This document shows positions 22,455 through 58,226 of a stretch of 64,000 bases of DNA, piece by piece; position 1 is the stretch's first letter; each line of letters begins with the position of its first letter. The stretch spans positions 436,001 through 500,000 of the forward strand of contig JAJPHC010000013.1 in assembly GCA_021325515.1 (NCBI GenBank), in the 5' to 3' direction. Made by a program: the position numbers and the translations under genes. Source of the DNA: Acidobacteriota bacterium (GTDB taxonomy: Bacteria; Acidobacteriota; Thermoanaerobaculia; Gp7-AA8). The notes under the pieces are model-generated. The model was not told the origin of the DNA. It worked only from the letters and a program-made list of their open reading frames with translations, and did not search any database.

Positions 22455-22530
22455 GCCGTTGTAGCTCAGTTGGTAGAGCAGCTGATTCGTAATCAGCAGG
22501 TCACCGGTTCAAGTCCGGTCAACGGCTCCA
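22455..22530 (+). tRNA. tRNA-Thr (anticodon CGT)
   Basis: A 76-base cloverleaf. Acceptor stem GCCGTTG (22455-22461) pairs with CAACGGC (22520-22526); the anticodon stem is GCTGA/TCAGC with loop TTCGTAA and anticodon CGT; the T loop is GGTTCAAGTCC; CCA is encoded. The phage integrase gene lies just past its 3' end, so this tRNA is probably attB and remains intact after integration. Confidence 0.95.
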
Positions 22531-22652: not shown

Positions 22653-23846
22653 TCACGCGCTGCGCTTCAGTGGGATCGCGTTCGCGATGATCTCGGCCGG
22701 CCGGAACTTCTCGATCAATTTTCGGCGCGTCAGGCGGTTCTTTACATACCAGCGCTCTGTGGTTTTCTCATCCGCGTGGCCGAGGTGAGCCGCTGCCGCT
22801 TTCATGTCCGACGTCTCTTCATAGACGGCGGTTGCGATCTCGGCGCGGATCTGGGCGAGGGTATCGATCGCGCCGATCCTCACCGGGTTCTTCTTCGCTC
22901 CGTCGCGCTTCATGGCGATGAAGCCGGCGGCTTTCGAGGCGGCGCGAATGCGCGGCCGCATCAGCTCGCGCGTCATCGGCTTGCCGGTGTCGTCGGTGAA
23001 GACGTATCCCCCAGGCGCCGCCTTCCGGACGAAGGGGCGGATCTTCTCGACCGCATCGGATGTGATGACGTAAACGTGGCGCTTCCGTACACGAGAGCCT
23101 TTGTTGTGAAGAATCGGACGAAAGACACCGATCGCGACTTCGCGGCCGTCGACGTCGATCGAGAGATCGAGATCGAATTCATCCTTCTTCGCGCTGAGGA
23201 TTTCGACGTCGCGAGCTCCAGTACGTGCTTTCAGGTATGCCACGGCTTGCTCGAGCGAACCTTCTGGCATCGCGGCGATCAGCTTCCGGATCGTTTCCGC
23301 GTCGAGATCCTTCTTCTCGCGAGTCTCGGCGCGGATCTCGTCATGCGGGATCTTCCAATCGACGGCGATCCACTTCCATCGCAGCATCGTGCGGAGAGCT
23401 GAAAGCGTCTTCGCGATCAGCGAGCCTTTGCTGCTGGTGTTCTGGCGCATCCAGCGGATGAATGCGGAGATGCGTGAGGAGTCGAGATCGCTCGCCAGGC
23501 GAACGCCGATATCGTGCATGCCGCGCTTCAGATAGTCGGTGGCGATCGCGTAATGGCGCGTGGTCTGCGGATCCCTGATCTTTTCGACTTCGAGTTGTTC
23601 AACGTGAGCGAGCCATTCATCACACAGCTGCTCGATCGCTACGTCGCGATCGCGCCGGCCGTACACGTGATAGTTCGTGTCGTGCTCCGCGCGCACACCT
23701 TTCGCGTCGGTTTTGAATCCTGGGATGAACTGCTCGTGATACGGATGTGACTTTCTCTGACAGACGAACACGTATCCCGCCCCATGCTTTGGGTGATCGT
23801 ATGGCGCCAGTCGATCTTCGAATTGAAGTCCCTTAGGCAGCGGCAT
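22653..23846 (-). CDS. int: Phage tyrosine integrase
   Basis: A 397-residue tyrosine recombinase reading toward the tRNA. An N-terminal arm-binding region (residues 1-65) and a core-binding helical domain (about 70-175) precede the catalytic domain. Catalytic residues seen are Arg212 (TGARDVEIL), Arg334 (LAQIRAE), His354/His357 (AAHLGHADE) and Tyr367 (RWYVKN); the first His of the usual HxxR box is not obvious. It inserts and excises the prophage at tRNA-Thr. GGAG lies nine bases before the ATG. The 5' end is abutted by an HNH gene and appears to have been rebuilt (see the remnant at 24355-24399). Confidence 0.92.
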   Translation of the reverse strand: MPLPKGLQFEDRLAPYDHPKHGAGYVFVCQRKSHPYHEQFIPGFKTDAKGVRAEHDTNYHVYGRRDRDVAIEQLCDEWLAHVEQLEVEKIRDPQTTRHYAIATDYLKRGMHDIGVRLASDLDSSRISAFIRWMRQNTSSKGSLIAKTLSALRTMLRWKWIAVDWKIPHDEIRAETREKKDLDAETIRKLIAAMPEGSLEQAVAYLKARTGARDVEILSAKKDEFDLDLSIDVDGREVAIGVFRPILHNKGSRVRKRHVYVITSDAVEKIRPFVRKAAPGGYVFTDDTGKPMTRELMRPRIRAASKAAGFIAMKRDGAKKNPVRIGAIDTLAQIRAEIATAVYEETSDMKAAAAHLGHADEKTTERWYVKNRLTRRKLIEKFRPAEIIANAIPLKRSA

Positions 23847-29098: not shown

Positions 29099-29544
29099 GC
29101 GCGACCGAACAACGCTCGTATCGGCGCCGCATCGGTTGGACGAGGCGCCCATTCTCTGAACGGATACGCGACTACACGGTCGATCCGGCGACAGGCTGCT
29201 GGAACTGGACTGGCCACATGGGAGGCACCGGATACGGTCTCGTGTTCGCCGAGGGAAAGCGTCGCGTTGCTCACCGCGTAGTTTACAAAGTGCTGAGAGG
29301 CGATGTTCCGAAGGGCCTCGATCTCGACCATCTGTGCCGCAATCGGCGGTGCGTCAATCCCGACCATCTGGAGATCGTCACGCACCGCGAGAACGTGTTG
29401 CGCGGCGAAGGTATCGCGGCGAAGAAAGCACGAGCCACCGAATGCCCCAATGGGCATCCGTATCCGCCTGACTCTCGCCGCTGTGCGATCTGTCGCAAGG
29501 CAACGCTTGAACGATATGCCGCGAAGAAAGGACGTCGGTCATGA
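29095..29544 (+). CDS. HNH endonuclease
   Basis: A 149-residue HNH_3 nuclease from GTG 29095. It shows GCWNWTGHMGGTGYGLVF, DLDHLCRNRRCVNPDHLE with the HNH core, and a C-terminal CPNGH...CAIC zinc segment. It is clearly related to the HNH at 23860. It overlaps the genes on both sides by four bases, so it has been fitted into the operon without leaving a gap. It may be a homing nuclease or a host-DNA or packaging nuclease. Confidence 0.85.
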   Translation: MSATEQRSYRRRIGWTRRPFSERIRDYTVDPATGCWNWTGHMGGTGYGLVFAEGKRRVAHRVVYKVLRGDVPKGLDLDHLCRNRRCVNPDHLEIVTHRENVLRGEGIAAKKARATECPNGHPYPPDSRRCAICRKATLERYAAKKGRRS

Positions 29545-30539
29545 CCGGCACGCCGTGTCGAATCTGCGGATCTCTGGAAGATCATCGCGGCATCGGCGGC
29601 AGCATGATCGCCGCTGTCCTCGGTCAATCGAAATGGAATACGCCATTGGATGCGTATCTCATCCTCCGCGGCAATCTCGAAGTCACCGAAACGAGCGCGA
29701 TGGAAGAGGGACATTACCTCGAAGAGCCTCTGTTGCGCTGGTATTCGGAAAAACACGATCGGTCCGCTCAACTGGTACGACGCCAGGACTTTCTGCGCCA
29801 TCCAGAGCTGCCGTGGCTCGTGGGGCATGTCGACGCGCGATATCGCAACGCTGCGGGTGACGAATGGTTCGCTGATGCGAAATCCGTCAACTGGCGAGCG
29901 GTCACAGCGTGGGGCGACGCTGGTACGGACGAGGTGCCACTCGATGCGTTTTGGCAGGGTCACTCCTATCTGTGGCTGGACCCATCCGCTCACAAGATCG
30001 ACTTTGTAGCGCGTCTCGGAGTGTGGCCTCCGAGAGTGTTCACGCTCACGCGCGATGACGAGCTGTTCGAGATGGTCAAGCCGAAGCTGATCGATTTTTG
30101 GAAGCACGTCGAAGAGGGCGTCCCGCCGGAGCCCGATTACGCCGACGATAAGACGCTCAACAGCATCAAGTCTCTCTACCCGCCGCACGAAGAGAAAACG
30201 CCACCCGTTGAACTTCTGCCCGTCGTCGATCTCGGCGGCGATCGCGTCGTCCGTCTCGAAGAACTGTGCGAGGCATACGAAGTGATCGGCAAGCGAGCGA
30301 AGGAGCTCGAATCGCTGAAGAAGCGGATCGAGGCTGCTCTCCGCGTCTCTCTCGGCACCGCGAAGAGCGGAAAGATCGGCTCGGCCACGATCAATCGCAT
30401 CTTCAACCGTGGCGGATTCCGGCCGGCAACAACCATCGATCCCTACGACTACCTGAAGCTCAACTTCCCCAAAGGCTACGAAATGAAGCTGACGATCAGC
30501 GCAGCACAGCGGCTGATCGAAGGAGAAACGAATGTCTGA
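29541..30539 (+). CDS. YqaJ-type viral recombination exonuclease
   Basis: A 332-residue lambda-exonuclease-like nuclease. The start GIGGSMIAAVLGQSKWNTP and EEGHYLEEPLLRWY, then HVDARY, WFADAKSV and FWQGHSYLWL, fit the PD-(D/E)xK core of YqaJ proteins. It resects double-stranded ends to give 3' single strands for the RecT protein encoded next (8-base overlap). Confidence 0.88.
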   Translation: MTGTPCRICGSLEDHRGIGGSMIAAVLGQSKWNTPLDAYLILRGNLEVTETSAMEEGHYLEEPLLRWYSEKHDRSAQLVRRQDFLRHPELPWLVGHVDARYRNAAGDEWFADAKSVNWRAVTAWGDAGTDEVPLDAFWQGHSYLWLDPSAHKIDFVARLGVWPPRVFTLTRDDELFEMVKPKLIDFWKHVEEGVPPEPDYADDKTLNSIKSLYPPHEEKTPPVELLPVVDLGGDRVVRLEELCEAYEVIGKRAKELESLKKRIEAALRVSLGTAKSGKIGSATINRIFNRGGFRPATTIDPYDYLKLNFPKGYEMKLTISAAQRLIEGETNV

Positions 30540-31686
30540 AATGCCGCCTGCTGCTCCTGCTGCGGGATCACCGTCGAAGGCTCTCACCGTCGCTGACAAA
30601 GCACTCGCGGTGAAGACGTACATCGAGAAGAACAGCGCCGCGATCGCCCAGGCGTTGCCGCGGATCGGGCTGACGCCTGAAGCGTTGACGCGCACTGCTC
30701 TCTCGCAGATTTACCGCAATCCGACGCTCATGGAGTGCGACAAAACTTCGCTGATGCGGTCGATTGTCGAAGCCGCATCCCTCGGGCTGTCGTTCTCTCT
30801 CGGCCGCGCCTACCTCGTGCCGTATCGCAACAATAAGAAGAACCGCATGGAGGCGCAGCTGATCCCCGGATACTTGGGGCTCGCTGACATCGCGCGCCGT
30901 TCAGGTGAAGTCGCTTCGATTACCGCCCAGGCGGTCTACAAGGGCGACGAGTTCAATTACGAGTTCGGCCTGGAGCGTGACGAGCTCCATCACAAGCCGG
31001 TCTCGGATCCGGACGATGCGAACCTCACGCACGTCTACGCGATCGTCCGCTTCAAGAACAACGGCGGCTATCAGGTCGTCGTGATGACGCGGAAGCAGGT
31101 CGAGTCGATCCGCAAGCGTTCGAAGAGCGCGAGCAATGGCCCTTGGGTGACGGATTACGCCGCGATGGCGAAGAAGACCGTCATCAAGCAGGTGCTGAAG
31201 CTCTGCCCTGCGTCGATCGATCTGATGCGTGCGATCGATCTGGACGAGCGCCACGATGCCGGTAAGCCTCAGTCTCTCGCACCAGAAGTCTTCGGCGACG
31301 ACGACACGATCGACGTCGAGCCTTCTTCGGATACTGAGACCGCAGCAGCAGCGCCGGCAGAAGAGCAGGCACCCGCTGCGGAACAGCAGCCACGGACACG
31401 CACGCAGACCGTCAAGGATGCGTTGACGAAGGCGAAGAAGACCGGCGACAAGGTCGCTACCGCTCAGGATGACGGCGAGACTCGCGCGGCACAGTGGGAT
31501 GCCACCTACAACGTGCTGACGAGAGTCGCGCGGTCTCACGCCGAAGCGGACGTCGAAATCTCCGCTGCAACCGGTGGCCGGATCCAGTCGATCGACAAGC
31601 TGAAGTCCGAGGGAACGATCGCCGACCTGAAGGCTGTCGAGACGCATCTCCTCGCGATCGCCGGTGAACGGGAGAGCGAGCAGTGA
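30532..31686 (+). CDS. recT: RecT family single-strand annealing protein
   Basis: A 384-residue RecT. The core runs from about residue 20 to 235 with LIPGYLGLADIARRSG, AIVRFKNNGGYQVVVMTR and PWVTDYAAMAKKTVIKQVLK, all typical. The C-terminal 140 residues are acidic and low-complexity, then a helical tail. It pairs single strands made by the YqaJ exonuclease, giving RecA-independent recombination and possibly concatemer formation. Confidence 0.93.
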   Translation: MSEMPPAAPAAGSPSKALTVADKALAVKTYIEKNSAAIAQALPRIGLTPEALTRTALSQIYRNPTLMECDKTSLMRSIVEAASLGLSFSLGRAYLVPYRNNKKNRMEAQLIPGYLGLADIARRSGEVASITAQAVYKGDEFNYEFGLERDELHHKPVSDPDDANLTHVYAIVRFKNNGGYQVVVMTRKQVESIRKRSKSASNGPWVTDYAAMAKKTVIKQVLKLCPASIDLMRAIDLDERHDAGKPQSLAPEVFGDDDTIDVEPSSDTETAAAAPAEEQAPAAEQQPRTRTQTVKDALTKAKKTGDKVATAQDDGETRAAQWDATYNVLTRVARSHAEADVEISAATGGRIQSIDKLKSEGTIADLKAVETHLLAIAGERESEQ

Positions 31687-31937
31687 AGGTTGAGCTCACG
31701 GTAGTCGAACGCTCTTACGTCGCGAACCTGCTGCGTCGCCGCTCGATGGAGGCGCAGCACAACCGTGATGTCACGAAGTCTGATCGACAGCGCGTCGAGT
31801 TCGAAGAAGAAGCGCGAATCGCGGAATCGCTCGCCATTCGCTTCGACGACGGAGAAGACCTGCAGCTCGAACAGAAGACGCCGATCATCCCGTCGCCGAA
31901 TCGGGACATCAACTACCTCGAGGAGCGCACGAGCTGA
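31683..31937 (+). CDS. Small early protein, unknown
   Basis: An 84-residue helical, charged protein (VERSYVANLLRRRSMEAQHN) overlapping recT by four bases. No family recognised; probably an accessory of the recombination module by position. Confidence 0.55.
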   Translation: MKVELTVVERSYVANLLRRRSMEAQHNRDVTKSDRQRVEFEEEARIAESLAIRFDDGEDLQLEQKTPIIPSPNRDINYLEERTS

Positions 31938-32329
31938 TGGCAACGATGACGGATTTCGAGATCGCGTTGCTCGAGCGCCTGGACAAGATCATCGAAGCGC
32001 TCGAAGCCGGTCCTCGCGGTCGCACGGTGGTTCGCACGAAGGGCGGACTGCGCGAGACCACGGGCGTGATCGAACGATACGACCCGCCCAATGACGCCGG
32101 CTTCGCGGGCGCGTGGATGAAGGGCGTCGTGTTCGCGACCAAGAACCCGGTGCTGATCCGCGCTGCTGAGAAAGCGTATGTCGATCAGGCGCATGTGCGC
32201 ATCACGTTCGTGATGAAGAAGAAGGGCCGCTACACAAATCGCTACATCGATGCCGTCGACGTTCTGCCGGCGGTTGAAGAACAACCCGCAACGCCTTGGA
32301 AGAGTGAAGCGGAGCAGGAATTCGTTTGA
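31937..32329 (+). CDS. Early protein with possible OB-fold
   Basis: A 130-residue protein with a helical opening (TDFEIALLERLDKIIEALEA) and a beta-rich body (GVIERYDPP, KGVVFATKN, HVRITFVMKKKGRYTNR). Strand pattern and position after recT suggest a single-strand-binding or OB-fold protein, but no signature proves it. Its ATG overlaps the upstream stop (single base). Confidence 0.5.
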   Translation: MATMTDFEIALLERLDKIIEALEAGPRGRTVVRTKGGLRETTGVIERYDPPNDAGFAGAWMKGVVFATKNPVLIRAAEKAYVDQAHVRITFVMKKKGRYTNRYIDAVDVLPAVEEQPATPWKSEAEQEFV

Positions 32330-32342
32330 GGAGGTGATGCGG

Positions 32343-32354
32343 ATGAAGAAGTAG
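32343..32354 (+). other. Possible three-codon minigene (Met-Lys-Lys-stop)
   Basis: A consensus AGGAGG (32329-32334) overlaps the upstream stop and stands eight bases before ATG AAG AAG TAG; another ATG at 32337 gives five codons in the same frame. No longer frame follows. It could be a leader peptide, a tRNA-starving minigene, or the relic of a lost gene. Confidence 0.3.
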
Positions 32355-32375
32355 CTCGCGACACGCTGGTGGAAA

Positions 32376-32551
32376 GGTCGTGGGGGCGTTCGATTACGCC
32401 ACTGAACCTGGGTCCGGACGCCTCCACGTAATCACGCGATTCATTGACAACTGATTCAGGACGATGCGGCTGTTGAGACCCGCTCGGTGCCGACACGCCT
32501 AGCGGCGAGCACACGTCGGCCCGCATTCCCTGAGTCAGTTGTGAGTGAGTC
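32376..32551 (+). ncRNA. Candidate structured RNA in the early operon
   Basis: Gene-free part of the 261-base gap 32330-32590. A long hairpin pairs 32438-32460 with 32529-32551: 23 positions with three U-G wobbles and one mismatch. It continues inward with 32463-32469/32521-32527, 32489-32494/32515-32520 and 32496-32499/32504-32507. A 5' element pairs GTGGGGGCG (32380-32388) with CGCCTCCAC (32420-32428), one G-U. The wobbles are favourable only in the forward transcript. No T run follows, so it is not a simple terminator. Confidence 0.5.
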
Positions 32552-32590
32552 GGTCACTCCGCAACCGAACAAATTGAAAGTGAGGAAACC

Positions 32591-32902
32591 ATGATCTACA
32601 GACAGGGTGATGTTCTCGTCCAGAAGGTCCGCTCAATCCCCGCGAATGCAAAGCCGGTGAAGCTCGACAACGGCCGCGTGATCCTCGCTTATGGCGAAGT
32701 CACGGGACACGCTCACGCGATCGCTGAAGTCGAACATGTCTCAATGGTGGAAGTCGACAACGGCATCCGCTATCTCGACGTGCAGATGGAAGCGTTCCTG
32801 CGTCACGAGGAACACGCGACCGTGAAGCTGCCGCCCGGTAAGTACCGCGTGATCCGCCAGCGCGAATACACGCCGGAGGCGATTCGCAATGTCGCCGACT
32901 AA
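32591..32902 (+). CDS. Small phage beta-barrel-like protein
   Basis: A 103-residue protein: MIYRQGDVLVQKV, then ILAYGEVTGHAHAI and KLPPGKYRVIRQREY. This pattern, with TGHAH, recurs in small proteins of many phages and actinobacterial plasmids, but the function is unknown. The ATG follows GTGAGGAAACC. It overlaps the next gene by 14 bases. Confidence 0.6.
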   Translation: MIYRQGDVLVQKVRSIPANAKPVKLDNGRVILAYGEVTGHAHAIAEVEHVSMVEVDNGIRYLDVQMEAFLRHEEHATVKLPPGKYRVIRQREYTPEAIRNVAD

Positions 32903-34307
32903 CCAGCGGATGCAACGTCTGTCGCCGGAAGAGGAAGCTGCTCTTCCGGCAATTCGCGACAAGTGGCTGAGCATCGGCCTTCAGACGCACGAGGGCGATC
33001 GGCAGCGCGCCTGGGAAGCGATCCGCCGCGCTTACAGCGCGGCGGGCCGCGCGGTGCCGAAGCTATGGATATGGATGGACTCTCCGTTGCGGATGGTTTA
33101 CGCGTGCGCAGTGCTGCGCGACAGCGCGGCACTGCGCGATCAGGTCCTCGCTCAGGTCAGCGATCAGGTCCTCGATCAGGTCCTCGCTCAGGTCAGCGAT
33201 CAGGTCCTCGATCAGGTCAGCGCTCAGGTCAGCGCTCAGGTCCTCGCTCAGGTCCGCGATCAGGTCGGCGCTCAGGTCCTCGCTCAGGTCAGCGATCAGG
33301 TCCGCGATCAGGTCGGCGCTCAGGTCCTCGCTCAGGTCCGCGCTCAGGTCCGCGCTCAGGTCCGCGCTCAGGTCCGCGATCAGGTCCGCGCTCAGGTCCT
33401 CGCTCAGGTCAGCGATCAGGTCCTCGATCAGGTCGGCGCTCAGGTCAGCGATCAGGTCCTCGATCAGGTCGGCGCTCAGGTCAGCGCTCAGGTCAGCGCT
33501 CAGGTCCGCGATCAGGTCGGCGCTCAGGTCCTCGATCAGGTCCGCGCTCAGGTCAGCGAGATCGCCTGGTGGGGCTGGTGGTATCAGCCAGGCCAGTTCG
33601 ATTGCTACTGGCTTTCGTTCTACGACGCGCTGCGTAAGTACTGCGATCCGACGCGTCTCGACAACCTGATCGCCGTCGCCGAGTCCTGCGCGATTGCATG
33701 GACGTTTCCGGACTTCGTCATGTTCTGCGCGCCGCCTGCGAACATCGATCGCGATGACTCTGGTCGTCTCCATTCAGAGCATCGCGCTGCGGTCGGATTC
33801 CGTGACGGGTGGGGTGTGTACGCGTGGCACGGGCTGCGTGTGCCGGCCGACATCATCGAGCACCCTGAGACCATAACGCTCGCGCAGATCAAGTCCTGCA
33901 CGAATCAGGAGCTTCGCCGCGTGATGATCGAGCGCTACGGCCAGTCGCGCTACCTGCTCGACTCTGGCGCCGAGCTCGTGTCCCAGGACGAATGTGGGGC
34001 TCTCTATCGCTCCGAGATCGAAGGCGATGAACCTCTCGTGATGGTTCGCGTTCTCAACTCGACGCCTGAACCGGATGGCAGTCTTACGCGCGATGAAGCG
34101 ATGCAGGCTTTCCCCGGCGTGAAGGTAGCGAGCGGCGATCTGCGCGGCGGTGAAGTGGAGATGGTCGGCATCGACCAACTGCCCGAGGACTCTCGCTTCA
34201 AGAGCTACTTCCTTCGCGTGCCTCCAGCCATCGAGACGGCTCGCGAGGCGGTCGCCTGGACCTTCGATGTACCTGCTGCGAAGTACCACCCATCGGTTCA
34301 GACATAA
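32889..34307 (+). CDS. DUF6745-like protein with 35 tetrapeptide repeats
   Basis: A 472-residue protein. Residues 1-84 form a helical N-terminus (PEEEAALPAIRDKWLSIGL, then WIWMDSPLRMVYA). Residues 85-224 are 35 perfect Gln-Val-x-(Ala/Asp) tetrapeptides. Residues 225-472 are a Trp-rich domain with GVYAWHGLRVPADIIEHPE, LRRVMIERYG and later strands, which I recognise as DUF6745-like. The biochemical role is unknown. The repeats may form a long helix or a quadrilateral beta-solenoid. It lies between recombination and replication genes. Confidence 0.75.
   Translation: MSPTNQRMQRLSPEEEAALPAIRDKWLSIGLQTHEGDRQRAWEAIRRAYSAAGRAVPKLWIWMDSPLRMVYACAVLRDSAALRDQVLAQVSDQVLDQVLAQVSDQVLDQVSAQVSAQVLAQVRDQVGAQVLAQVSDQVRDQVGAQVLAQVRAQVRAQVRAQVRDQVRAQVLAQVSDQVLDQVGAQVSDQVLDQVGAQVSAQVSAQVRDQVGAQVLDQVRAQVSEIAWWGWWYQPGQFDCYWLSFYDALRKYCDPTRLDNLIAVAESCAIAWTFPDFVMFCAPPANIDRDDSGRLHSEHRAAVGFRDGWGVYAWHGLRVPADIIEHPETITLAQIKSCTNQELRRVMIERYGQSRYLLDSGAELVSQDECGALYRSEIEGDEPLVMVRVLNSTPEPDGSLTRDEAMQAFPGVKVASGDLRGGEVEMVGIDQLPEDSRFKSYFLRVPPAIETAREAVAWTFDVPAAKYHPSVQT
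33141..33560 (+). repeat. 35 tandem 12-bp coding repeats
   Basis: Unit CAGGTC-NNC-G(C/A)T without a single break. The first six bases never change; the third codon is CTC, AGC, CGC or GGC (Leu, Ser, Arg, Gly) and the fourth GCT or GAT (Ala, Asp; the final unit ends GAG). The antisense and other forward frames stay open here only because the unit lacks stops. Confidence 0.95.
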
Positions 34308-34327: not shown

Positions 34328-35089
34328 ATGGCGCGCGTGAACATGGAGCAGAGCGTTTTCAGCGATCCCCGATATCGGGTTCTCGCACGCGAACTCGGCG
34401 TCGACGTGTGGTCCGCAATCGGGCGGATGACGATGGTTTGGAACCACTGCCAGGAGACGTGCTCACACGTGTTGCGAGAAGAAATAGTGAACCATCTGTT
34501 TGAAGACGCTCCGCAGCTCAGTGAAGCACTACTGAAGTCGGAGTTGGGCAAGAAACACCGCCATGGCATCTACATCAGCGGTTCGCGTGGTCGCATCGAA
34601 TGGCTTGAAAACAAACGACGTGCGGGCAGGAAAAATGGCAAGAAGGGTGGACGTCCAAAGAAAACCGATCCGAAACCTACGGAAAACCAAGATAGGTTAC
34701 GGACGGAAACCCCTCCTGCTCCTGCTCCTGCTCTTGCTCCTGCTCCTGCAGTAGAAGACGAAAAGAAAAAGACTCCTTCGGAGTCTTCAAAGAAACCCTC
34801 CGCGAAAGAGTTGGTCGAGAGTTTCGTTCTGATGCCGAAGCACCGCGAGTGGGGTGCGAAGAATTGCCCGTCCGTTCCGCTCGAAGCCGAGCTCGATGCG
34901 TGGCGCGATCGGTTGCGAGCATCCGAGTACAAGTACGGCAAGGCTCGGACGCCAGTCGCTGACGCACAGGCGAGTTTCTACACGTCGTGCCGGTACGCGG
35001 AACAAGACGGCCGCTATCGCAAGGGCGGTTCGCTATTCGGGCAGTCGCCTACGAAGCCGTTCGCACAGGCGCCGCGGAGGTCTGAATGA
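34328..35089 (+). CDS. Replication initiator-like protein
   Basis: A 253-residue protein. The N-terminal 95 residues (DPRYRVLARELGVDVWSAIG, IEWLENKRRAG) resemble the winged-helix start of phage replisome organisers. A basic, Pro-rich linker (GRKNGKKGGRPKK, then repeated PAPA) leads to a C-terminal domain. Position before the methylase and helicase genes supports a role in loading the helicase; this is inference. Confidence 0.6.
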   Translation: MARVNMEQSVFSDPRYRVLARELGVDVWSAIGRMTMVWNHCQETCSHVLREEIVNHLFEDAPQLSEALLKSELGKKHRHGIYISGSRGRIEWLENKRRAGRKNGKKGGRPKKTDPKPTENQDRLRTETPPAPAPALAPAPAVEDEKKKTPSESSKKPSAKELVESFVLMPKHREWGAKNCPSVPLEAELDAWRDRLRASEYKYGKARTPVADAQASFYTSCRYAEQDGRYRKGGSLFGQSPTKPFAQAPRRSE

Positions 35090-35538
35090 TGGCTGCCCGA
35101 CTCTCGATCGTGCCGATCACCATCGCTGATGCGAAAGAGTTTGTTCGGCTGCATCACCGGCATCACCGCGCGCCTGTGGGAGGACTTTTCGCTGTCGCTG
35201 TTGCGAGGTCTGGAAGCGTTGTCGGCGTCGCGATTGTCGGTCGCCCTGTTGCACGTGGCAACCAGGACGGGTTCACCGCGGAAGTGACGCGACTCGCGAC
35301 TGACGGATCGCGTAACGCCTGTTCGATGCTCTATGCCGCGAGTTGGCGCGCTGCGAGGGCGCTCGGATATCGCCGGATGGTCACCTACACGCTCGCTTCA
35401 GAAAGCGGCGTGTCGCTGCGGGCTGCCGGATGGTTTCTGATCGCCGAAGTGAGTGGACGATCGTGGGACTGTCCATCACGCCCGAGAACCGACCGACATC
35501 CGACGCAGGACAAGCTGCGGTGGGAGGCATCGGTATGA
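35086..35538 (+). CDS. XF1762-like / GNAT-fold phage protein
   Basis: A 150-residue protein with the pattern KEFVRLHHRHHRAPVGGLFA, VVGVAIVGRPVAR, EVTRLATDG and ACSMLYAASWRAARALGYRR, matching the GNAT-related XF1762 family common in phages. Substrate unknown. It overlaps its neighbours by four bases on both sides. Confidence 0.75.
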   Translation: MMAARLSIVPITIADAKEFVRLHHRHHRAPVGGLFAVAVARSGSVVGVAIVGRPVARGNQDGFTAEVTRLATDGSRNACSMLYAASWRAARALGYRRMVTYTLASESGVSLRAAGWFLIAEVSGRSWDCPSRPRTDRHPTQDKLRWEASV

Positions 35539-36371
35539 GGCGGCAGCGTCCCGTGCTGCGCTACCACGGCGGGAAATGGCGCCTCGCCTCGTGGATCATC
35601 AGCCACTTTCCCGAGCACCGCTGCTACGTCGAGCCGTTCGCTGGAGCAGCTTCGGTTCTGCTCCGAAAGCAGCGGTCTTACGCTGAAATCTACAACGACG
35701 TCGACGACGAAATCGTGAACGTATTTCGCGTCCTGCGAGATCAGAACGAAGCGAGCGAGTTGACCCGGTTGCTGCGACTCACGCCGTTTTCGAGAACAGA
35801 ATTTGAGCAGGGATACGAGGACTCGCAAGGAATCGAACGTGCCAGGCGCACGATCGTTCGATCGCTGATGGGCTTCGGTTCCGACGCCGTGAACGGTCAT
35901 CACAAGACCGGGTTTCGAAGCAACAGCAACCGCTCGCATACCACGCCAGCACATGACTGGAAAAACTACGCCGATGCGATTCCGTTCTTCACGCAACGAC
36001 TCGCCGGCGTGGTGATCGAGAATCGGGATGCGTGCGAGGTCATCGCACAGCACGATTCACCGCAAACGCTTTTCTACGTGGATCCGCCATACGTGCACAG
36101 CACGCGCAACAAGGCACACAACTCATCGAAGCGCAACTATCGGCACGAGATGACGGACGAAGATCACGTGCGTCTCGCAGACGCGCTGCGGCGCGTGCGA
36201 GGCATGGTGATCATCTCCGGCTACGAGTCTGATCTCTACGCTGAGCTTTACGCCGGATGGTCGACGGCCACACGAAACGCGCTGGCAGACGGCGCGCGCA
36301 AGCGAGAGGAAGTCCTGTGGCTGTCGCCGAACGCGGTGGCTCAGGCGAATCTGGCGGTGGCGAATGGCTGA
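35535..36371 (+). CDS. dam: DNA adenine methylase (D12 class)
   Basis: A 278-residue Dam-like methyltransferase. The target-recognition start LRYHGGKWRLASWI, the AdoMet motif EPFAGAASV (33-41) and the catalytic DPPY (183-186) are intact. It probably protects phage DNA from host restriction or marks origins. The ATG at 35535 overlaps the previous stop; the earlier frame start is a shadow. Confidence 0.92.
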   Translation: MRRQRPVLRYHGGKWRLASWIISHFPEHRCYVEPFAGAASVLLRKQRSYAEIYNDVDDEIVNVFRVLRDQNEASELTRLLRLTPFSRTEFEQGYEDSQGIERARRTIVRSLMGFGSDAVNGHHKTGFRSNSNRSHTTPAHDWKNYADAIPFFTQRLAGVVIENRDACEVIAQHDSPQTLFYVDPPYVHSTRNKAHNSSKRNYRHEMTDEDHVRLADALRRVRGMVIISGYESDLYAELYAGWSTATRNALADGARKREEVLWLSPNAVAQANLAVANG

Positions 36372-37761
36372 GAAAACAGCAGTCGCTCTCGATCGCCCTC
36401 TCCCGCAATCTCCTGATGCTGAGCGCGCAGTACTCGGCTCCGTGCTAACGAACTCGCAGTGCTATTGGCGCCTCACGCAGATCATCACCCCGGAAGACTT
36501 CTTCCGCGATGCGCATCGCTCGATCTGGTCGGTGATCAAAGCCATGGCGAACGCCGGCAGCGAGATCGACACGCTCACGGTGAAAGAAGAGCTCGTGCGC
36601 CGCGGGCAGCTCGAACAGGTCGGCGGACACGCTTACGTCTCAGCGCTGATGGACGGAGTGCCCGACATTGCGAACGTCGAGAAGTACGCGCAGCTCGTGG
36701 TTAGAGCCGCGAAGCTGCGCCGGATCATCGTGATCGGCAATGAGCTGATGCGCGGTGCACTCGACACGCCGGAAGACGATCCCGAGGACATCGCGAGCGT
36801 TGCAATGGCGAAGCTGACGAACCTCGCGACGAACGAAGAAGCGCGCGTCCAGCCGCTCTACGACGTGGTCTCGACGGCATATGAAACGCTGCAGCGTCGA
36901 CGCAACGGAGAGTCAGTCGGATCACTTTCAACGGGCTGGATGTCTCTCGATCTCGTGAAAGCGATTCGCCGGACGTTCACGATCGTCGGCTGTCCGTCCG
37001 GTCACGGGAAGACCGCGTTCGCCGTCAATGTCGCGGATCGACTCGCAGCGAACACACACCGCGTGGCGATCTTCTCGCTCGAATCGACCGAAGAAGAATC
37101 GGCATTGCGGTGGGTGTCGGCGACATCGCAGATTCCACACAGCCGCGTGCAGGACTGGACGCAGCTGCGCGATGACGATCTCTCGAAGCTTGCTGAAGCG
37201 CACATGATCGCGAAGCGTCGAACGATCTGGCTCACGCGCCGGCTTCGCACGATCGAGGAGATTTACGCGGAGAGTCGGCGCCTGGTCGCAATGGGTGGGC
37301 TCGATGCAATCGTGATCGATTACATCCAGCTGATTCGCACCGAACAGAAGATCCGCGACATGGAGCCGCGCATGTCGATGGTGTCGCAGACGCTGCTCGA
37401 GATGGCGATTGATCTCGAGATCGGTGTGATCGCAACCAGCCAGGTGAACAAAGAACACCGGCAGCGCGATAACGGCCGGCTCTACATGGAAGACCTGAAG
37501 TATGCCGCCGCGATCGGCGAGAGCTCGCGCGTTGGGCTGCTGTTCCAGCGGCCATGGGTCTACGACAAGAGCAACGCGGATCTCGCGCCGTGCCTGGTGC
37601 GATTCCAGATCGAGAAGAACAACGAAAACATCACCAATGACGTGGTGATGCACTTCGACGACAGGACTCAACGATTCAGCGAGGGCGATTGTGCAGCGAA
37701 CGGCTGCAGGCGTGCTCGCGTGAGTAACCACGAGGAAGAAGAGTCGCCGCTATTCAGGTGA
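36364..37761 (+). CDS. dnaB: DnaB-type replicative helicase
   Basis: A 465-residue helicase. The N-terminal domain begins RPLPQSPDAERAVLGSVL and ends near residue 155; the RecA-like ATPase has Walker A GCPSGHGKT (209-217) and later IVIDYIQLI. It unwinds the phage replication fork. The start overlaps the methylase gene by eight bases. Confidence 0.94.
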   Translation: MAEKTAVALDRPLPQSPDAERAVLGSVLTNSQCYWRLTQIITPEDFFRDAHRSIWSVIKAMANAGSEIDTLTVKEELVRRGQLEQVGGHAYVSALMDGVPDIANVEKYAQLVVRAAKLRRIIVIGNELMRGALDTPEDDPEDIASVAMAKLTNLATNEEARVQPLYDVVSTAYETLQRRRNGESVGSLSTGWMSLDLVKAIRRTFTIVGCPSGHGKTAFAVNVADRLAANTHRVAIFSLESTEEESALRWVSATSQIPHSRVQDWTQLRDDDLSKLAEAHMIAKRRTIWLTRRLRTIEEIYAESRRLVAMGGLDAIVIDYIQLIRTEQKIRDMEPRMSMVSQTLLEMAIDLEIGVIATSQVNKEHRQRDNGRLYMEDLKYAAAIGESSRVGLLFQRPWVYDKSNADLAPCLVRFQIEKNNENITNDVVMHFDDRTQRFSEGDCAANGCRRARVSNHEEEESPLFR

Positions 37762-39142: not shown

Positions 39143-39146
39143 GATC

Positions 39147-39260
39147 TCGATTCTCGATTCTCGATTCTGTCGATTCTCTCGATGCGTCGATTCTCGATTC
39201 TCGATCGTCTCGAATCTCGAATCGCGGAGATGTCGATTCTCGAATCTCGAATCTCGAATT
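39147..39260. repeat. Array of about 12 TCGAWTC repeats
   Basis: Runs of TCGATTC and TCGAATC, some directly abutting with a 7-base period, fill 114 bases upstream of the XRE gene start. Two GTGCACGCGT repeats (39266-39275, 39282-39291) follow. They could be iterons, operators or a partition site. Confidence 0.8.
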
Positions 39261-39312
39261 GCACAGTGCACGCGTAATCATGTGCACGCGTGCCGTACGT
39301 GGGTGGGAGGCG

Positions 39313-39318
39313 TAGAAT
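39313..39318 (+). promoter_or_regulatory. -10 element (TAGAAT) for a short RNA or for the VWA gene group
   Basis: TAGAAT with no clear -35 box. Transcription from about 39325 would reach the terminator after some 80 bases. Confidence 0.3.
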
Positions 39319-39365
39319 CATCACGCGCAGGATAACGCCGTTCACGCGGCGCTTGTCCTCCGGGG

Positions 39366-39406
39366 ATGCCGCAGTGCACGTGCTAGGTGCCTGCGGCATT
39401 TTTCTT
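39366..39406 (+). terminator. Rho-independent terminator (end of early region)
   Basis: A 9-bp stem ATGCCGCAG/CTGCGGCAT extended by four more pairs, then TTTTTCTT. It would stop transcripts from the early operon or a short RNA started near 39325. Confidence 0.85.
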
Positions 39407-39411
39407 CCCAC

Positions 39412-39750
39412 GTGTGGCAGCGCATTCACGACGTGGTGAGTCATGCGGCCGAACGCCTTACCGCGTACTCTGCTGACTCCTGGACAGGCAAGGTTTCTAA
39501 CCCCTTCCGCGACACTCTGATCACCAATATCCGCGACCTGGTCTCACTCCTGCCGCGTCTCAACGTCACGGCGGATGCGCAACTCGAAGCGATGCGCGCC
39601 CGTCTCGAGCAGACACTGTGCGCGTACGATCCGCAGCAGCTGCGCGAGTCTCCCATCGTGCGCCAGACAGCAGCCGACGAAGCGGCGCGGATCCTCGCAG
39701 ACATGGCCGGTTACGCGAGCAATGGGAGTGCAGCAGCACGCGAATCGTAG
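39412..39750 (+). CDS. Hypothetical helical phage protein
   Basis: A 112-residue, mostly helical protein from GTG 39412 (DVVSHAAERLTAYS, NVTADAQLEAMRARLEQTL). It overlaps the VWA gene start by 29 bases. Family not recognised. Confidence 0.5.
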   Translation: MWQRIHDVVSHAAERLTAYSADSWTGKVSNPFRDTLITNIRDLVSLLPRLNVTADAQLEAMRARLEQTLCAYDPQQLRESPIVRQTAADEAARILADMAGYASNGSAAARES

Positions 39751-57297: not shown

Positions 57298-58226
57298 TGA
57301 CAGTCGGCCTGCTCGCGACGCGCCTCATGGATGAAGTTCCCGGCATCGGGCCGCGCGAAGCACGGAAGCGCATTGCTCGAGCAATCAAGGAAGTGTGCGA
57401 GCTGCATCCGTGGTCGCACCTCATCGCACAATACGCGCTTCAGACAGAAGACTCGTACAACACCGGAACCGTCGCTGTAGTGAACGGATCGACGAGTGTC
57501 ACGCTGACTTCCGGCACGTGGCAAACGTCCTGGTCTACTGCTCCGTCGAGTCGAAAGATCGTGATTCAGGGGAGAGCAGAGCCCTACACCATCACGATCA
57601 ACACGTCGACCACCGGGACTCTCAGCGATCCGTTCATTGGAGCGACGAACAGCGTGGCGACCTATCGCATGTTCCGCGACACGTACCCGCTTCCCTCAGA
57701 TTGCGACTACGGCAAGATCATGACGCTGTGGGACGTGCTCAACAACCGCGCGATGTACTTCCGCGACTTCCCATTCTTTATTCGCAGGAAGAACGAGGCG
57801 CAGGGCATCGTGGGGACGCCTGTCGAGTATGCGCTGGTGGGAATGACGACCGAGCAGCCGCCGCGACCGCAGATCGAATTCGGATGGGAATCGCCATCGG
57901 TCGCAACGACGTACCGACTCTGGTACTTCAAACGTCCGGCGTTTCCGTCTGCCGATGGCGATTACCCGAATTTCCCTGAGCGGTTCGAAAACCTGCATTG
58001 GCTTCGCGCGGCGATCGACATCGGCCTGTCCGCGCGCACGCCGAACAAGAACGTGCCGCAGTGGAAAGCTCAGTACGACGAGCTGCTGCTGCAGGCGAAG
58101 GCGGAGATGGACGGCGGTGCGGCCGTCGATCGCGAAGTGCAGAGCGTCTACCTCGGGCGGCAGCAGGGCATTTACGCCGGTCCCTCGAATCCTGACTTCC
58201 AGAACAACGCGAGGTATCTCGGCTGA
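57294..58226 (+). CDS. Head-tail connector protein
   Basis: A 310-residue protein: helical start (ATRLMDEVPGIGPREARKRI, ELHPWSHL), a beta middle and helices near the end (QYDELLLQAKAEMDGGA). It resembles adaptor/head-completion proteins that cap the portal. The exact family is not certain. Confidence 0.65.
   Translation: MMTVGLLATRLMDEVPGIGPREARKRIARAIKEVCELHPWSHLIAQYALQTEDSYNTGTVAVVNGSTSVTLTSGTWQTSWSTAPSSRKIVIQGRAEPYTITINTSTTGTLSDPFIGATNSVATYRMFRDTYPLPSDCDYGKIMTLWDVLNNRAMYFRDFPFFIRRKNEAQGIVGTPVEYALVGMTTEQPPRPQIEFGWESPSVATTYRLWYFKRPAFPSADGDYPNFPERFENLHWLRAAIDIGLSARTPNKNVPQWKAQYDELLLQAKAEMDGGAAVDREVQSVYLGRQQGIYAGPSNPDFQNNARYLG

Follow-up and report, generated by a model that had tools for sequence, protein, structure and literature searches.

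The window, a stretch of 64,000 nucleotides from an Acidobacteriota contig, contains a prophage that adjoins a tRNA-Thr gene (22455-22530); its gene for a tyrosine integrase (22653-23846) is encoded on the minus strand. The early operon of this prophage lies on the plus strand and comprises, among others and in this order, genes for a YqaJ/RecE-like exonuclease, RecT and two small ORFs, a gap of 261 bases, and genes for a 103-aa protein, a DUF6745 protein, a replisome organizer and a DnaB helicase. The gap is conspicuous because the other genes of the operon overlap by a few bases or lie about 20 nt apart. The features around it are as follows.

29541-30539, 30532-31686, 31683-31937 and 31937-32329, plus strand: genes 5' of the gap (gene calls)
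31937-32329, plus strand: upstream 130-aa orphan ORF, with no PHROG or Pfam match and no viral relative
32330-32590, plus strand: non-coding intercistronic gap, with no gene-like ORF and no codon periodicity; RNA minimum free energy (MFE) -111 kcal/mol, z -3.9
32330-32354, plus strand: putative SD-like GGAGG and minigene-like ATG AAG AAG TAG (MKK stop), read from the sequence
32591-32902, plus strand: downstream 103-aa protein, PHROG match phrog_27831, with an SD-like GAGG at about 32582
32889-34307, plus strand: DUF6745 protein, overlapping partner of the 103-aa gene (Pfam PF20530, E 6e-55)
32591-32902, 32889-34307, 34328-35089, 35086-35538, about 35343-36371 and 36364-37761, plus strand: genes 3' of the gap (gene calls)

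The initial annotation described the gap as gene-free in an operon of nearly touching genes, and both the flanking gene coordinates and the codon-position GC bear this out. The latter is flat across the gap (0.61/0.61/0.54), compared to about 0.64/0.43/0.75 in most neighbouring genes. No protein frame through the region, which would have spoken against an RNA, was found: there is no codon-position signal, and a comparison of the small ORFs of the gap with PHROG gave zero matches. A hidden protein gene was thus rejected. The minigene-like signal, which the initial annotation had missed, follows directly after the upstream stop codon, with GGAGG and then, 8 nt on, ATG AAG AAG TAG. As this SD and ATG stand exactly where the next gene of the operon would be expected to start, they could be what is left of an ORF that mutation or insertion destroyed, with an accidental fold. 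We consider such a decayed gene very unlikely given the lack of codon periodicity, the small ORFs without a PHROG match and a fold that is far from chance (see below).

The gene pair downstream of the gap is recurrent in phages, where relatives of the 103-aa protein are encoded in no fewer than 517 viral stretches. The pair also occurs on plasmids, beside genes of the STM4011-STM4015 family. The DUF6745 gene contains a 12-nt repeat in about 35 copies (33135-33558). Many contigs of IMG/VR terminate within this gene and two carry its halves at opposite ends, a pattern expected if the repeats make assemblies break. A literature search for DUF6745 by name found no paper.

Predicted fold of the gap transcript

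Folding of the plus strand of the gap predicted two adjacent hairpins and a possible stem that closes them, with the helices and pair probabilities (p) given below.

32379-32428, plus strand: hairpin 1, 14-bp stem 32379-32392/32415-32428 (12 Watson-Crick, 2 G-U; p about 0.95-1.0)
32437-32460, plus strand: 5' arm of the hairpin 2 main stem, 24 positions (20 Watson-Crick, 3 G-U, 1 G-G; p about 1.0)
32529-32552, plus strand: 3' arm of the hairpin 2 main stem, pairing with 32437-32460 (p about 1.0)
32463-32469, plus strand: 5' side of the hairpin 2 inner helix, partner 32521-32527, 7 pairs (6 Watson-Crick, 1 G-U; p about 1.0)
32521-32527, plus strand: 3' side of the hairpin 2 inner helix, partner 32463-32469 (p about 1.0)
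32472-32520, plus strand: apical region of hairpin 2, competing folds including GCTCG/CGAGC (pair probabilities about 0.25)
32338-32346, plus strand: 5' side of a possible long-range closing stem, partner 32554-32563 (from the MFE structure of the gap)
32554-32563, plus strand: 3' side of the possible closing stem, partner 32338-32346 (from pair probabilities)

The 23-position hairpin of the initial annotation (32438-32460/32529-32551, three wobbles and one mismatch) was recovered at its exact position, with 19 Watson-Crick pairs, three G-U pairs, one G-G and a p of about 1.0. It extends to 24 positions with the C-G pair 32437-32552, and the duplex of hairpin 2 reaches about 30 pairs when the inner helix is included. 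The main helices of both hairpins hold a p of at least 0.95 when 200 nt of flank are added on each side. The separate upstream helix exists as well and had been under-called, as it has 14 bp with two G-U pairs instead of 9 bp with one. Of three helices said to be nested inside the long stem, 32463-32469/32521-32527 is solid, while the apical ones belong to competing folds (p about 0.25). The proposed crossing pair of GCTCG (32482-32486) with CGAGC (32506-32510) was correctly located; however, it is nested in the MFE structure, has a p of about 0.26 and crosses nothing but an alternative helix, and a pseudoknot was therefore rejected. The closing stem had been missed; its p is 0.7-0.8 for the gap alone and 0.3-0.4 with flanks. 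An alternative pairing of 32332-32342 with 32521-32531 is possible and competes with the inner helix. The SD of the downstream gene is unpaired in the MFE structure. Overall, we confirmed the earlier observation, which was slightly under-called.

Fold stability and strand asymmetry against the host background

The forward strand of the gap folds at -111 kcal/mol compared to -91.1 +/- 5.1 kcal/mol for its shuffles (z -3.9; 0 of 200 shuffles), whereas the fold of the reverse strand is ordinary (z -1.0; 32 of 200 shuffles). In 620 kb each, Markov-2 random sequence contained one inverted repeat of this quality, giving a chance of about 4e-4 per gap, and the actual host contig contained 55. Since the host contig is so rich in long hairpins, stem length alone is a poor argument here; strand asymmetry is a better one. 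Background sequence was taken from 556 kb of this contig that lie beyond the window. Among 6,887 windows of 180 nt on the host contig, 38 fold as strongly on their better strand, four are as asymmetric and none is both, in a test that was chosen after the feature had been seen and in which the test window, unlike the background windows, was centred on the feature. As initially annotated, only the forward transcript allows the wobbles to pair; with three G-U and no A-C, however, a single stem carries little weight alone (two-sided 0.25). The three robust helices together have seven non-Watson-Crick positions (six G-U, one G-G, no A-C). This bias of 6 to 0 for G-U over A-C runs in the same direction as the strand asymmetry and carries small weight because two of the helices came from a method that allows G-U. 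Taken against the host contig, fold energy and strand asymmetry support with moderate strength a predicted structured RNA in the forward transcript; this part of the initial proposal stands, and its pseudoknot-like element does not.

The same background raises the question of a palindrome that matters as DNA, be it of the host intergenic type, the relic of a small mobile element or a protein or replication site, with an incidental RNA fold. The host contig (C51) contains many long palindromes whose arms are facing tandem repeats of 7-9 nt (TGGGACGGA, AAAATTG, GAGTGAC, AATTCAG), and a REP/MITE-like family, GTTAAGTTGGTTTTCGGGGGTCACACCTGGAAAATCAACTTAAC, that occurs as inverted pairs; the best of the 55 inverted repeats are DNA palindromes of these two kinds. 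Examples are listed here.

303640-303757, 513031-513144, 430675-430757 and 39058-39228 on C51: tandem-repeat palindromes
121143-121269, 572766-572874 and 583363-583469 on C51: REP/MITE-like family GTTAAGTTGGTTTTCGGGGGTCACACCTGGAAAATCAACTTAAC

A comparable palindrome of AGTCCTG units was seen in one relative (L062). An origin of the gap structure as such a palindrome would agree with this abundance and with the 28.7 bits that the reverse strand of the gap still reaches against the RNA model. However, host palindromes fold about equally on both strands and the gap structure does not, the gap element is single copy in the genome, and its arms contain no tandem unit and have no visible similarity to the host families. 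A DNA-level palindrome hence appears unlikely.

Other repeats and structures were noted within the window. A second and stronger structured element of the same prophage lies at 39262-39425 (z -5.4 on the plus and -4.8 on the minus strand), beside a minus-strand HTH_3 gene. Its fold resembles a four-way junction and combines an outer stem and inner hairpins with a terminator-like hairpin that carries a U-tract. Phages gave no match to this element; an exact piece of 20 nt recurs in the host genome and a 27-nt piece occurs in one genome of the class, and nothing beyond these was found. Adjacent to it, about 15 imperfect heptamers (TCTCGAT) form an array at 39145-39257 that overlaps the 5' part of the HTH_3 ORF. 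An inverted repeat at 57470-57647 appears, by inspection only, to be coding and coincidental.

Search for relatives of the gap

Rfam covariance models identified only the tRNA in the window and gave only chance matches on the gap itself, none above the gathering threshold. This agrees with the initial annotation, which had not recognised the RNA and had suggested such a search; a known Rfam RNA was rejected, as was a tRNA or tmRNA identity of the gap. By blastn, the gap had no homologue among phages and plasmids and gave short, chance-level pieces only in 149 genomes of the class. A covariance model built from the single sequence was run on 38 additional loci, another 130 viral loci (the related loci amounting to about 1.2 Mb), the 149 genomes of the class, 396 of the phylum and 46 viral records in full; it found no homologue, although such a model is weakly informed and could miss distant homologues. 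The single near-threshold match in a genome (G013, 23.6 bits) was rejected as a heptamer-repeat palindrome. Scans of IMG/VR with two degenerate patterns gave zero matches. Neither of the two outcomes that the initial annotation had named as refuting, homologous gaps that lack compensatory changes in the stem and a conserved protein frame, was observed. The prophage lineage itself has no close relatives in the collections searched: the upstream 130-aa ORF has no viral relatives and two weak partial matches in the 396 phylum genomes, and no viral relatives of the replisome organizer were found.

The downstream 103-aa gene allowed a comparison of the gap across related phages, as had been proposed initially. 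Half of its approximately 86 viral relatives have less than 25 nt upstream of the gene, and most have a short gap or none. Of the few with long gaps, two fold fairly well, without resemblance to the structure described here, and the others have unremarkable folds; the covariance model had no match upstream of any of the relatives. The gap is thus mostly absent from these phages and its structure was found in none, which is why we rejected a conserved leader of the 103-aa/DUF6745 pair. In a rival reading, a 5' leader would control the pair located directly downstream, either autogenously or by attenuation through the minigene (SD-ATG-AAG-AAG-TAG), whose AUG lies within the possible closing stem. 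The minigene signals, the closing stem and the pairing that competes with the inner helix are all compatible with such control; the comparison with the 103-aa relatives and the unpaired downstream SD speak against it, and we regard a leader as rather improbable.

Another rival is a stand-alone small RNA of about 180-230 nt, transcribed from a separate promoter or released from the operon mRNA by processing, which would act in trans on targets of the host or the phage. Its compact fold with a possible closing stem, typical size and strand specificity would suit this role. However, it has no conserved relative, and neither a sigma-70-like promoter within the gap nor an intrinsic terminator behind it was found, although a GC-rich host may use other signals. 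We rate a small RNA of this kind as rather improbable. A bolder proposal is a new class of phage non-coding RNA of about 200 nt, with two long hairpins on a closing stem and a built-in minigene, which would act as a regulator or decoy in early infection; represented so far by one prophage, it is improbable.

A possible processing site in the early mRNA

We tentatively favour, at somewhat less than even confidence, a cis-acting pair of RNA hairpins between cistrons whose duplex would be cut by host RNase III or would block exonucleases, and which would split the operon mRNA. The gap would then be a structured segment of the polycistronic early mRNA of the prophage, presumably transcribed as one operon, in which two adjacent long, irregular hairpins separate the recombination genes from the block of 103-aa, DUF6745, replisome organizer and DnaB genes. 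The long and near-perfect duplex of hairpin 2 may be cleaved by RNase III or may simply act as an exonuclease block, and the two halves of the operon would become separate mRNAs that differ in stability, with a possible effect on expression. Translational coupling would end at the gap, so that the 103-aa gene would need its own SD.

Three features expected of an RNase III site were found: the gap lies between cistrons of tightly packed genes on the same strand, which are probably co-transcribed, its duplex exceeds 20 bp with a p of about 1.0 in the operon context, and the host encodes RNase III (TIGR02191, 244 bits, above the cut-off). The unpaired downstream SD was also counted in favour of a processing site. 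An intrinsic terminator was rejected because the hairpin has no U-tract, and no such site was found on the plus strand of the gap. A processing hairpin depends on shape and not on sequence and may have evolved locally, in keeping with the absence from relatives. Against a processing site, the 230-nt structure of two hairpins and a possible closing stem exceeds what a simple site requires. The abundance of long hairpins on the host contig, the choice of the strand test after the feature was known and the lack of a homologue in the searches weigh against it as well.

If real, the structure would show where early mRNA is controlled in a phage lineage remote from those studied. It is of modest interest, being a lone sequence without relatives that an ordinary mechanism would explain; as a single-sequence candidate, it is a useful case for judging fold energy and strand asymmetry. 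Comparative genomics has yielded orphan candidates for structured non-coding RNAs (e.g. PMC2864571), which are likewise unannotated structured intergenic RNAs without an Rfam family; in contrast to the gap RNA with its single representative, they have many homologues and covariation. The put RNAs of phage HK022 have two stem-loops in about 70 nt near early promoters (PMC9378689). A comparable element for processive antitermination, acting on RNA polymerase during transcription of the early operon, would also place two adjacent hairpins in an early phage transcript, but the gap structure measures about 200 nt and lies mid-operon, outside the size and position of put, making this highly improbable. 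The closest likeness is to the RNase III sites in the early polycistronic mRNA of phages (T7 R-sites, e.g. R1.1), which share the intercistronic position, the irregular hairpin with a long duplex and the presence of host RNase III. The gap structure differs in being larger (two hairpins and a possible closing stem) and in belonging to a temperate prophage of an unrelated host, where cleavage is only proposed; the comparison is offered as an analogy and not as a claim of membership.
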